A stretch of DNA of 42,815 bases from Sulfuritalea sp. (GTDB taxonomy: Bacteria > Pseudomonadota > Gammaproteobacteria > Burkholderiales > Rhodocyclaceae), in contig JAUSCI010000069.1 in NCBI GenBank assembly GCA_030651305.1, positions 1 through 42,815 on the forward strand, read 5' to 3'. Below the pieces are notes generated by a model that saw nothing but the letters and a program-made list of their open reading frames with translations, was not told the DNA's origin and made no database searches. Of this stretch, positions 31,181 to 34,735 are shown in pieces (position 1 is the first letter of the stretch; every line of letters starts with the position of its first letter). A program made the translations under genes and the position numbers.

Positions 31181-32253
31181 CCGGCGTGCCGGCACGCTGG
31201 TGGCATAGCCTGGACGACGGCCGCATCCAGTGCGACCTCTGCCCGCGTAATTGCCGCGTGCACGAGGGGCAGCGCGCCGCCTGCTTCGTGCGCGCCATGC
31301 AGGGCGGCGAAATGCTGCTGACCACCTACGGCCGCAGTTCGGGCTTCTGCATCGATCCGATCGAAAAGAAGCCGCTCAACAACTTCCATCCCGGCTCCAG
31401 CGTGCTGTCCTTCGGCACCGCCGGCTGCAACCTGGCCTGCAAGTTCTGCCAGAACTGGGACATCTCCAAATCGCGTGACATGGATCGCCTGATGGATGAC
31501 GCCACGCCGCAGGCCATTGCCCGCGCAGCGCAAACGCATGGCGCAAAAAGCGTCGCCTTCACCTACAACGACCCGGTGATCTTTGCCGAGTACGCCATGG
31601 ATACGGCCGATGCCTGCCATGCCCTGGGCGTGAAGAGCGTCGCCGTCACCGCCGGCTACATGCACCTTGAGCCGGCGCGCGAGTTCTACTCGAAGATGGA
31701 CGCCGCCAACGTCGACCTCAAGGCCTTCACCGACGACTTCTATGAGAAGCTCTGCGGCGCCCGTCTGCAGCCGGTGCTCGACATCCTGGCGATGATCCAC
31801 CACGAAACCGGTTGCTGGCTGGAAATTACCACCCTGCTGATTCCCGGCAAGAACGATGGCGACGACGAACTGAAGGCGCTGTCCGCCTGGGTGGCGAGGG
31901 AACTCGGACCCGATGTGCCGCTGCATTTTTCTGCCTTCCATCCAGACTGGAAGATGAGCGACATCCCGGCCACACCGCAGGCCACCCTCGCCCGCGCCCG
32001 CCGCATCGCCATGGATGCCGGCCTGCACTACGTCTACACCGGCAACGTACACGACAAGGCCGGCGACGAAACGCTCTGCCCCGGCTGCGGCAAGGCCGTA
32101 GTCCAGCGCGACTGGTATCGCATCCTCGGCTACGCGCTGGACGATACGGGGCATTGCCGGCATTGCGGCACGGCCATTGCCGGTCGCTTCGGCGTATTTG
32201 CCAAGCCCTTCGGCCCGCAGCGTATTCCGGTCAGGCTGCACGCCGGCGCCTGA
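31156..32253 (+). CDS. AmmeMemoRadiSam system radical SAM enzyme
   Basis: A 365-residue radical SAM protein started at the ATG at 31156 (MERSADPIAG), overlapping the fusion gene by 25 bases. The [4Fe-4S] cluster motif is Cys91-x3-Cys95-x2-Cys98 in GCNLACKFCQNW. An N-terminal Cys group (CDLCPRNC, with AACF after) and a C-terminal CPGC...CRHC pair suggest further metal sites. VAFTYNDPVIFAEYAMDT and TTLLIPGKNDGDDELKAL are typical of this family. It works, presumably, with the Memo-AMMECR1 protein; the reaction is not known. Confidence 0.92.
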   Translation: MERSADPIAGVPARWWHSLDDGRIQCDLCPRNCRVHEGQRAACFVRAMQGGEMLLTTYGRSSGFCIDPIEKKPLNNFHPGSSVLSFGTAGCNLACKFCQNWDISKSRDMDRLMDDATPQAIARAAQTHGAKSVAFTYNDPVIFAEYAMDTADACHALGVKSVAVTAGYMHLEPAREFYSKMDAANVDLKAFTDDFYEKLCGARLQPVLDILAMIHHETGCWLEITTLLIPGKNDGDDELKALSAWVARELGPDVPLHFSAFHPDWKMSDIPATPQATLARARRIAMDAGLHYVYTGNVHDKAGDETLCPGCGKAVVQRDWYRILGYALDDTGHCRHCGTAIAGRFGVFAKPFGPQRIPVRLHAGA

Positions 32254-32285
32254 GATCGACCGTCGTCCAGCCACCACGCACGGAC

Positions 32286-33737
32286 ATGAACATCCTTATC
32301 CCGTCACAGCGGTACAGCCGTTGGAAGAACTGGATCATCTGCCTCGCGGCCATTCTGCTGGGAGGCTGCGTCAAGATCTATATCGTCGGGCACACCGACG
32401 ACTGGTCGGATTACATGACCGGGACCGGAAGTGCCGCTCCCCTGGGTGGCGAAGGCTCTGCCGAAATACGTTTCGCCAAGCTCGATACGGCCTGCAAAGG
32501 AACATTCAAGGACTATGCGCTGGGCAAGGCGCGCGGAGAAATCCGGTGCGACGACGCCCGGGTCATCAAGACCGAGTCCTGGGCTGTTTCCCTGTCGGCC
32601 GGCAAGGGTTATGGCACCGACCAGTTAGGCCACCGCGGCGAGTTCGCTTTCTTCACCGACATCAACGACTACGAGCAGGAACTGGCGTCGGTTCGCGCCG
32701 AGGTCGAACGCCGGAAACTGGACGTCGTCCACCTGCGGGCGCCACGCCAGATGCCAAGCATGATCGAGGCGCCAGGAGCCGCAACGCCCGCCGCGGCACA
32801 GGCGGCAACCGTATTGCCGCCACCGGTCGCGATGCCAGCCGCGCCGCCGACCGCTGCAGTTGTCCCCGCAATAGCACCCGGCAGCACGGGCAAGCGCCTC
32901 GCGTTGGTGATCGGCAACGGCAGCTACCGTGACGCGCCGCTGAAGAATCCGGTCAGCGATGCGCGGGCGCTTTCAACCAAGCTGCGCGCGCTGGGCTTCG
33001 AAGTCATGAGCGGGGAAAATCTCGGCCAGCGCGAGATGACCCGCCTCGTCGCGCGCTTCGGCGAGCGCCTGGCCGGGCACGATGTCGGCATGTTCTTCTT
33101 CGCCGGGCACGGCATCCAGGTCAAGGGCAAGAACTACCTGATTCCGGTGGACGCCCAAATCGGCTCCGAGAATTCGGTGCGCGCCGAGGCCGTCGACGTC
33201 GATGCCGTGCTCGACCAGCTTTCCGCCAGCCCGCTCAATCTGGTGATCCTCGATGCCTGCCGCAACAATCCCTTCGAAAGACGTTTCCGCAGCGTGGGTG
33301 GGGGCCTGGCGCAGATGGACGCGCCCAAGGGCACGCTGATCGCCTATGCCACGGCGCCCGGAAAGGTGGCGCAGGATGGCGAAGGCGCAAACTCAACCTA
33401 CACGACCGCCCTGCTGAAAGTGCTGGCGGAGCCAGGACTGCCGGTGGAATCGGTATTCAAACGGGTGCGCAGCGAGGTCTCGCGCATGACCGGCGATACC
33501 CAGATTCCGTGGGAGGCGTCGTCCCTGACCGGCGATTTCTTTTTCGTCAGCGCCAGTTCGCCGCCGAAGTCCGCGCCGGCCGCCGGCGCAGACTCGGAGG
33601 CGGAGCTTCTGTTCTGGCAGTCGGTAAAGGACAGCCCGGATGCCGGCGACTTCGAAGCCTATCTGCGTCAATACCCGAATGGGCGTTTTTCGGAAATCGC
33701 CAGGAACAGGCTGAATCGCCTCAAGTCCGCGAAATAG
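32286..33737 (+). CDS. Caspase-like (peptidase C14) lipoprotein
   Basis: A 483-residue protein with a lipoprotein signal (LLGGC, Cys28). Residues 29-150 are a beta-rich extracytoplasmic region of unknown type; a Pro/Ala-rich linker follows at about 155-200. The caspase domain (203-435) has KRLALVIGNGSYRDAPL, DARALSTKLRALGFEV, the catalytic His275 in FFAGHGIQVKGKNY and Cys325 in LDACRNNPFERRF, so the dyad is complete. A short helical tail resembles a TPR-like module (SVKDSPDAGDFEAYLRQYPN). Prokaryotic orthocaspases often cut after Arg or Lys. Its place 32 bases after the radical SAM gene suggests co-transcription but not necessarily joint function. Confidence 0.9.
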   Translation: MNILIPSQRYSRWKNWIICLAAILLGGCVKIYIVGHTDDWSDYMTGTGSAAPLGGEGSAEIRFAKLDTACKGTFKDYALGKARGEIRCDDARVIKTESWAVSLSAGKGYGTDQLGHRGEFAFFTDINDYEQELASVRAEVERRKLDVVHLRAPRQMPSMIEAPGAATPAAAQAATVLPPPVAMPAAPPTAAVVPAIAPGSTGKRLALVIGNGSYRDAPLKNPVSDARALSTKLRALGFEVMSGENLGQREMTRLVARFGERLAGHDVGMFFFAGHGIQVKGKNYLIPVDAQIGSENSVRAEAVDVDAVLDQLSASPLNLVILDACRNNPFERRFRSVGGGLAQMDAPKGTLIAYATAPGKVAQDGEGANSTYTTALLKVLAEPGLPVESVFKRVRSEVSRMTGDTQIPWEASSLTGDFFFVSASSPPKSAPAAGADSEAELLFWQSVKDSPDAGDFEAYLRQYPNGRFSEIARNRLNRLKSAK

Positions 33738-33970
33738 ATCCAGTGTCGGCATGCAACCGGAACCGCTCTGGCGGACCAGCCGCGACGATACAGTTTCGGT
33801 GCCGGCTACCATCGGCTTGAACGGCATCCCCATCAGGATGTCGCGCTCGATCCCGGGCGACACAATCAACATAAATCCCATGACTTGATAGTGGCAATTT
33901 GAGGGGCTTGCCATCGCCGACTTGGCTACTACAATTTGTGATTGACACTTGAACTATTGCTTTTTGCGAC
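33738..33970. other. 233-base gap before the Sec-methyltransferase gene
   Basis: No further gene seen. TTGACA occurs at 33942-33947 without a good -10 partner. The DNA around 33880-33965 is clearly more AT-rich than its neighbours and probably holds the promoter of the following gene. Confidence 0.35.
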
Positions 33971-34735
33971 TTGACCTTCGATCGCGAGCGATTGAAGAAG
34001 GAAATCCGGGTGACCTACGGACGGGTAGCCGAGCAACCGGATGGTGATTTTCATTTTCATCGCGGCCCGGCATACGCGTCGTCGGCACTCGGCTACGATC
34101 GTGCCGAACTGGACGAACTGCCCGGTTTCGTGACCGCGCCCTTTGCCGGAGTCGGAAATCCGCTGAAGGTGCGCAGCGTGCCGCGCCGCGCGACGGTGAT
34201 CGATCTGGGTTCCGGCGGCGGCATGGATTGTCTGCTGGCCGGGCGTCGGGTTGGGCCGGAAGGCAAGGTCATCGGCTTCGACATGACCGAGGCGATGCTG
34301 GGCAAGGCTCGCGAGGGTGCACAGGTCGCCGGAATGCGTCATGTACGTTTTGAGCAAGCGGATATTTCGCAATTGCCGATCGACGACGCATTGGTCGACG
34401 TCGCAATTTCAAACGGCGTAATCAATCTCAGCCCTGAAAAGCCGGCTGTCTTCGCCGAACTCCACCGCGTACTGCGCAAGGGCGGCTGGGTTCAGTTTGC
34501 CGACATCGTGATCGAATCCGAGCTGTCGGCGGCAGCGCTCAACGATGTCGAGCTCTGGGTCGGGTGAATCGCGGGTGCTCTGCAGTCTGCAGGCTATCTC
34601 GCGGCACTCGCCGAAGCAGGGTTTGAGCGCGCCGAAGTGGTCGAGTATTTTGATACCTTCGCCGGTACCAGTAAGGAAAACACCGCACGCAAGTATGGCG
34701 TGCGTGGCGCAAATTTCATCGCCTATAAAGTTTGA
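33971..34735 (+). CDS. ArsM/UbiE-like SAM-dependent methyltransferase, probable selenoprotein (in-frame TGA = Sec199)
   Basis: A 254-residue class I methyltransferase if the in-frame TGA at 34565-34567 is read through. Motif I is VIDLGSGGGMDC (75-87) and motif II is VIGFDMTEAMLGKAREGA. DALVDVAISNGVINLSPEK and FAELHRVLRKGGWVQFADIV follow. At residue 199 the frame reads ELWVG-TGA-IAGAL; related arsenite-type methyltransferases have Cys here (LWGECIAGAL type), and Cys87 matches a second conserved ArsM Cys. After TGA, 55 more codons stay open and end with FDTFAGTSKENTARKYGVRG and FIAYKV, which look like a normal family C-terminus. A hairpin fitting a bacterial SECIS follows the TGA. The start is uncertain: TTG at 33971 keeps the N-terminal helix, but TTG 33992 or GTG 34010 (AAGGA upstream) are alternatives. 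The substrate is unknown; arsenite is possible. Confidence 0.72.
34565..34600 (+). promoter_or_regulatory. Candidate bacterial SECIS element after the in-frame TGA
   Basis: Downstream of TGA (34565-34567) the RNA can form GC, bulged U, CUGC (34577-34583), loop AGUCU (34584-34588), GCAG then GC (34589-34594). Sixteen bases separate UGA and loop, a G is among the first two loop bases, and a U bulges from the 5' arm. The E. coli fdhF element, as I recall it, has UGCAGGUCUGCA at 17 bases; here UGCAGUCUGCA. Confidence 0.65.

Follow-up and report, generated by a model that had tools for sequence, protein, structure and literature searches.

The question raised by this locus is whether a TGA found inside a methyltransferase gene of Sulfuritalea sp. 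ends the gene or is read as selenocysteine (Sec). We have analyzed the whole contig stretch of 42,815 nucleotides in which it lies (the window from here on). The frame on the forward strand is broken only once, at codon 199 (numbering from the TTG at 33971), and then runs through 55 sense codons to a terminal TGA at 34733-34735, as the original prediction made from the letters alone had described. The mechanical list of open reading frames closes the gene at the internal TGA with a product of 198 residues, and full readthrough would give 254. Since the core SAM-binding part lies upstream of the TGA, an ordinary stop leaving a short methyltransferase, or a pseudogene, has to be weighed against Sec. 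The single candidate Sec sits in the motif U-I-A-G, which fits the pattern UxxG. The features discussed are collected in Table 1.

Table 1. Features of the methyltransferase locus, in window coordinates.
Feature	Position	Strand	Basis or remark
Sigma-70-like promoter match TTGCCA-16-TACAAT, just upstream	33908..33935	+	Consensus match only
Codons ATT GCT TTT TGC GAC, aligning with the N-terminus of the orthologs	33956..33970	+	Conserved Cys at 33965-33967
ArsM-related SAM-dependent methyltransferase frame with one in-frame TGA	33971..34735	+	Pfam Methyltransf_31, 4.8e-28; orthologs 63-83% identical
In-frame GTG with AAGGA 7 nt upstream, putative alternative start	34010..34012	+	Inference
Val61 codon, place of CmArsM arsenic ligand Cys72	34151..34153	+	Alignment
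Cys87 codon, candidate partner of Sec199	34229..34231	+	Role inferred
Gly149 codon, place of CmArsM arsenic ligand Cys174	34415..34417	+	Alignment
TGA, predicted selenocysteine codon, residue 199; counterpart of CmArsM Cys224	34565..34567	+	Sequence comparison
SECIS lower extension, 34570-34575 pairing with 34598-34603	34570..34603	+	Retained in most of the 13 sequences
Bacterial SECIS upper hairpin GC-(U)-CUGC-AGUCU-GCAG-GC	34577..34594	+	Bulged U 34579, loop 34584-34588

We have found the same TGA at codon 199 in 14 distinct genes, that of the window included. Twelve of them form one clade, with relatives 63-83% identical to the window gene, and two (L005 and L084) are distant, with about 43% identity. 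All the 11 close orthologs, which come from the same genus, the same family and records under other names, carry it in the context WVG-TGA-IAGAL. Among the aligned relatives without TGA the site is Cys in 43 of 43 (27 belonging to the class that we call NG, see below, and 16 ArsM proteins with three Cys). An in-frame TGA that orthologs share and that stands opposite Cys in further homologs is the pattern by which selenoprotein genes are recognized, and it is also what the original prediction had expected from such an alignment. Trp was found at this site in none of the 43 proteins and, with a SECIS hairpin and the Sec machinery also present (see below), it is scarcely credible that readthrough of the UGA inserts Trp or some other amino acid with no selenium involved. 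These counts leave aside four loci taken as duplicates (L032, L033, L034 and L036, of L002, L056, L055 and L057 respectively), and the weaker or partial matches (L010-L017, L018-L030, L039 and L123-L126) fall outside the key-residue classes. Three plasmid rows (L127-L129) entered the tree and not the residue counts; by eye they have Cys at site 199.

One of the 14 genes, present as a second copy in a relative of the same genus (L038/L078; L038:3595-3642, G022:C81), has a deletion of 7 nt a few codons after the TGA, with loss of the 3' half of the SECIS stem and a frameshift as the result. This paralogue is a case of decay or of assembly error, and was excluded from the selection, SECIS, tree and residue counts. 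It is a partial instance of one of the findings named beforehand as speaking against a selenoprotein, stops and frameshifts in close relatives; the others, the absence of selB and selC from the genome and a lack of homologs with Cys at the site, were not encountered. Two of the Sec-form genes (L031 and L035) are on contigs labelled Planctomycetota and Thioalkalivibrio and are 80-83% identical to the betaproteobacterial gene, a matter of either wrong binning or transfer. Relatives were also detected in 62 plasmid records at E <= 1e-30, each with less than 60% identity, and a scan of viral contigs, sensitive to close relatives only, found none.

Selection on the frame gives the same picture on both sides of the TGA. 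Over the 11 close sequences dN/dS was 0.146 for the part upstream of the TGA and 0.151 for the part downstream, the SECIS codons (+1 to +10) being excluded; with these included the second value rises to 0.207 because synonymous changes there are so few. In all 55 pairs dN/dS was below 0.3 across the whole frame. Purifying selection being equal on both sides, the part after the TGA is translated and useful. In the ten codons immediately after the TGA pS was 0.106, versus 0.615 in the part upstream and 0.640 in the part downstream, and of all stretches of ten codons in the gene the three with the highest codon conservation begin at codons 199, 201 and 200 (0.913, 0.905 and 0.904, for a median of 0.502), a pattern pointing to an RNA signal that overlies the coding sequence in the ten codons 3' of the TGA. 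It is this comparative evidence (the TGA shared by 14 genes, the synonymous constraint and the two-sided purifying selection) that provides the decisive support for a predicted selenoprotein, and on these grounds a chance open frame or a pseudogene was rejected.

The published rules for bacterial SECIS elements, in the accessible text of their source, call for a loop of 3-9 nt, a stem of 4-16 bp, a G in the first two loop bases, a distance of 16-37 nt from the UGA and a minimum free energy of -7.5 or lower (PMC13188914). We applied them by hand and the window hairpin falls within all of them, with 6 bp and one bulge, -9.1 kcal/mol for a 27-nt stretch and a loop that begins 16 nt after the UGA, which is the lower limit of the rules. 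The SECIS-like hairpin that had been proposed at this distance, bulged U included, is confirmed. Its loop had been described with G in the first two bases, and this stands in either fold: in the 5-nt loop AGUCU the G is the second base, and in the minimum-energy fold, in which the loop A also pairs with U, it is the first base of a loop GUC with a spacing of 17 nt. Taken by itself, the fold of the window sequence carries little weight, since it is not exceptional (z = -1.75, with 10 of 200 shuffles folding at least as well). Across 13 sequences, 91.0% of the cells are paired, versus 31-47% when the partner is slid. The covariation is thin, with two pairs changed on both sides in one sequence each; among 500 shuffles none scored as high for covariation, and a single one attained as high a percentage of paired cells. 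L005 and L084, the two distant Sec forms, do not keep the lower stem, and their hairpins have a different loop and no bulge.

In the 85,630 nt of both window strands the bulged-U hairpin with the AGUCU loop occurs once, exactly at 34577-34594, and a relaxed version of it (a 5-nt loop of any sequence whose first two bases include a G, 16-37 nt from a preceding TGA) follows 10 of the 1,112 TGAs found in any frame. Over 130 loci (1,260,030 nt, both strands, with overlapping copies counted) the AGUCU form appeared 23 times: 22 at the codon 199 TGA of methyltransferase genes, among which are copies of one and the same gene, one after the TGA of a formate dehydrogenase-N gene, and none elsewhere in these loci. 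Nine other loci of the genome of the window, with 91,992 nt, did not contain it. Rfam at gathering thresholds gave 0 matches in the window, so that no library SECIS model is matched.

The genome of the window carries the machinery that Sec insertion would need, and the search for it suggested with the original prediction had a positive outcome for the four genes. We identified selA (C43:175341, 578.8 bits over a cut-off of 267.9), selB (C43:172227, 469.5 bits over 242.25), the tRNA-Sec gene selC just behind selB (C43:172088, anticodon TCA) and selD (C64:152), all of them above curated cut-offs. Besides this longer selD, a partial second match is located at a contig end (L054, C52:64025-64354). 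When we examined 395 genomes of the family, selB was over the cut-off in the eight out of eight with the TGA form, compared to 115 of 395 overall and to 4 of the 20 with only TGA-free relatives (E <= 1e-30). The co-occurrence had hypergeometric and Fisher probabilities of 4e-5 and 1.6e-4, computed over related genomes that are not independent. The genome carrying the distant L005 (G046) has no selB above the cut-off; in it a SelB fragment beside tRNA-Sec runs into the contig end. The presence of selB in the eight of eight genomes of the family with the TGA form adds to the conserved TGA, the equal selection and the synonymous constraint in making an ordinary stop at 34565 very improbable.

A second selenoprotein of the same genome is, judging by its own in-frame TGA, the alpha subunit of formate dehydrogenase-N (contig C81, L122:374-3436; TIGR01553, 1471.6 bits). 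Like the methyltransferase gene, it has a UGA followed by a hairpin whose loop is AGUCU and in which a U bulges out 4 bp below the loop. Unlike it, the protein is unrelated and the loop lies 18 nt after the UGA instead of 16. Two unrelated genes in one genome with a common SECIS loop offer a clean model for what its SelB recognizes.

With the machinery, the alignment of homologs and the SECIS rules all supporting the original prediction on this point, the TGA at 34565 is very probably read as selenocysteine and the window gene very probably encodes a selenoprotein, which a gene finder that stops at the TGA would shorten to a methyltransferase of 198 residues.

The substrate of this methyltransferase is another matter. 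The best curated NCBI model for the protein is the arsenite methyltransferase NF008823, with 215.9 bits, below the cut-off of 263; the same model gave 365-380 bits in the four of four three-Cys proteins scored and 198-236 in the seven of seven NG-class proteins scored, that of the window among them. In the phmmer alignment to CmArsM, from whose printed form the CmArsM residues were counted, Sec199 corresponds to Cys224, Gly149 to Cys174 and Val61 to Cys72. If ArsM is recognized by Cys at CmArsM positions 72, 174 and 224, one of the three is kept here, as Sec. All 13 of the Sec forms in the alignment had Val61 and Gly149. Among the Cys forms of this class the place of Cys72 was Val in 27/27, and that of Cys174 was Gly in 26/27 and Ala in 1/27. 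We have called NG this separate class that keeps only the third arsenic ligand of ArsM. In a maximum-likelihood tree of 59 rows it (43 rows) was separated from the three-Cys ArsM proteins (16) with support 100/99, the residue classes having been named after inspection of the alignment and the tree having used those columns too. The known arsenic methyltransferases of the PDB (CmArsM and others; 4fr0, 5eg5 and 5evj) share with the window protein the homologous SAM domain and a Cys224 in the place of Sec199, but they are longer (377-387 residues versus 254) and have the two arsenic-binding Cys that it lacks.

These comparisons bear on the possibility, put forward in the original prediction and in existing annotations, of a true inorganic-arsenite methyltransferase in which Sec would be a better arsenic ligand than Cys. 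Sec199 does align with an arsenic ligand, arsenic methyltransferases are the best matches of the protein in the PDB (5.3e-26), reviews class UxxG selenoproteins in this way in their accessible text (PMC9312934, PMC13188914), and Cys87 or the N-terminal Cys could serve as the other ligands. Against it, the places of Cys72 and Cys174 hold Val and Gly in every Sec form aligned, and the NF008823 scores set the whole class apart from the three-Cys proteins. In CmArsM, moreover, the C174A and C224A mutants are each described as inactive on arsenite and methylarsenite (PMC3877260), and another study found the three Cys conserved in 343 ArsM orthologs, after filtering for sequences with no fewer than 3 of 4 conserved Cys (PMC5552862). 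We consider an arsenite methylase unlikely. The earlier idea that Sec replaces an arsenic-binding Cys is correct as to the position, and is weakened by the Val and Gly at the other two ligands and by the score below the cut-off. The arsenic-enzyme label of the Sec branch is doubtful because two of the three arsenic-binding cysteines are missing from it, and for the NG class as a whole the name arsenite methyltransferase should be tested. The window protein belongs to a sister class to ArsM, with a substrate that is probably not inorganic arsenite.

Cys87 is present in 12 of the 13 Sec forms, in none of the 27 NG-class Cys forms and in 9 of the 16 ArsM, a distribution that fits a partner for Sec199 and is suggestive only. 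Its equivalence to CmArsM Cys72 was rejected, as Cys72 aligns with Val61.

Putting these elements together, the reading that we favor, with a probability of about 0.88, is that the UGA at 34565 is translated as Sec by means of SelB and the hairpin, giving an ArsM-related NG-class methyltransferase that has a single reactive Sec199 and is likely not an arsenite methylase. SelB-GTP-tRNA(Sec) would be recruited by the hairpin that starts just downstream of the UGA and would decode it. The product would be a class I SAM-dependent methyltransferase in which the third arsenic ligand is kept as Sec, probably placed beside the methyl group of SAM as Cys224 is in ArsM. As the single reactive chalcogen, Sec199 might hold or attack a soft metalloid, a metal or a thiol-type substrate, with Cys87 as possible resolving partner, and the classical methylation of inorganic arsenite is probably not its function.

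ArsM-like selenoproteins of the UxxG kind are already known, and the window gene is a further one. An arsenite methyltransferase (PRK11873) is tabled as a selenoprotein, with Fomenko et al. 2007 cited, in the accessible part of one review (PMC9312934); another gives the motif UxxG for it and lists three related families with several Sec (PMC13188914), and a survey counted, in the part available, 41 proteins in 39 organisms (PMC5029168). This published selenoprotein (NF008823/PRK11873), as far as its accessible descriptions go, is ArsM-like with a single Sec in UxxG, as is the window protein, which differs in falling below the NF008823 cut-off and in belonging to a betaproteobacterial clade. 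The lack of the equivalents of Cys72 and Cys174 in the window protein may be a further difference. The three multi-Sec families (NF041537, NF041536 and NF047649) share the homologous methyltransferase domain and, in the published table, the UxxG Sec (PMC13188914), but there it is fused to AhpD, DUF2284 or UXPK-star and two or more Sec are present, whereas the window protein has no fused second domain and one Sec. Its scores on these models were 191.3, 175.9 and 171.3 bits, under cut-offs of 510, 575 and 460, and the seven NG-class proteins scored between 171 and 213 bits. In the literature covered, which included few subscription papers, we found no description of the betaproteobacterial Sec clade or of its missing arsenic ligands. 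Sulfuritalea is a betaproteobacterial genus, and in the accessible text of a 2006 survey the Betaproteobacteria had one selenoprotein family, fdhA being the only one (PMC1794560); to formate dehydrogenase a well supported selenoprotein clade can now be added.

The gene neighborhoods gave little in common. Among the 13 Sec-form loci, some of them a few kb long, no neighbor gene was common to more than two when stop-to-stop ORFs of at least 80 residues were compared; L100 and L101 had two alpha/beta hydrolases in common and L031 and L035 one alcohol dehydrogenase. Around Cys forms of the NG class we have observed pairs of methyltransferase genes flanking a sigma-70 factor gene (L113, L114 and L111, Pfam-tested in L113 only), sigma-70 and zf-HC2 genes directly before the methyltransferase gene of a Chelatococcus (L127), and in haloarchaeal plasmids (L128 and L129) a methyltransferase gene directly after one of the OsmC family, a neighbor that suggests a link to oxidative stress. 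A broader proposal, which we put forward tentatively and at somewhat less than even odds, is that the NG-class Sec proteins are a separate, non-arsenic family of single-chalcogen methyltransferases for which the arsenite label is a misnomer. In this proposal the location of some Cys relatives beside OsmC or sigma/anti-sigma genes would indicate a role in oxidative or thiol stress. Sec would have arisen once or twice: the tree places two Sec clades apart (2 changes), and a single Sec clade is not rejected by an AU test (p 0.0625).

The start region of the window copy is peculiar. In 11 of 11 close orthologs a purine-rich Shine-Dalgarno-like sequence precedes an ATG that lies 18 nt ahead of codon 1, and a conserved Cys is the fifth residue. 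The window copy lacks the ATG and a visible Shine-Dalgarno sequence; it reads ACT/ATT instead, with an in-frame TGA just upstream, and whether or how it is translated is therefore uncertain. The TTG at 33971, given as the start in the original prediction, becomes doubtful in the light of the orthologs. A selenoprotein gene working in the relatives and silenced or decaying in the window could leave such traces. On the other hand, the window copy has no frameshift and no other stop, its SECIS is intact, possible non-ATG starts exist (ATT 33956, TTG 33971 and GTG 34010) and there is a promoter-like match upstream. Its pairwise dN/dS was 0.073-0.208 (10 pairs) and its branch in the tree 0.14, which is not long when compared with 0.04-0.25 in the ten other close sequences. 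The selection on its coding sequence being as strong as in the relatives, a loss of expression, if real, would be recent. We regard silencing as a real but minority possibility, and an assembly error in the start region is also possible. A mobile element was considered behind the lost start and discarded, as the 228 nt upstream have no second match in the genome and no repeated element was found. Just upstream of the methyltransferase gene, on the same strand, the window has a gene with a caspase domain (Peptidase_C14, 31812-33737).
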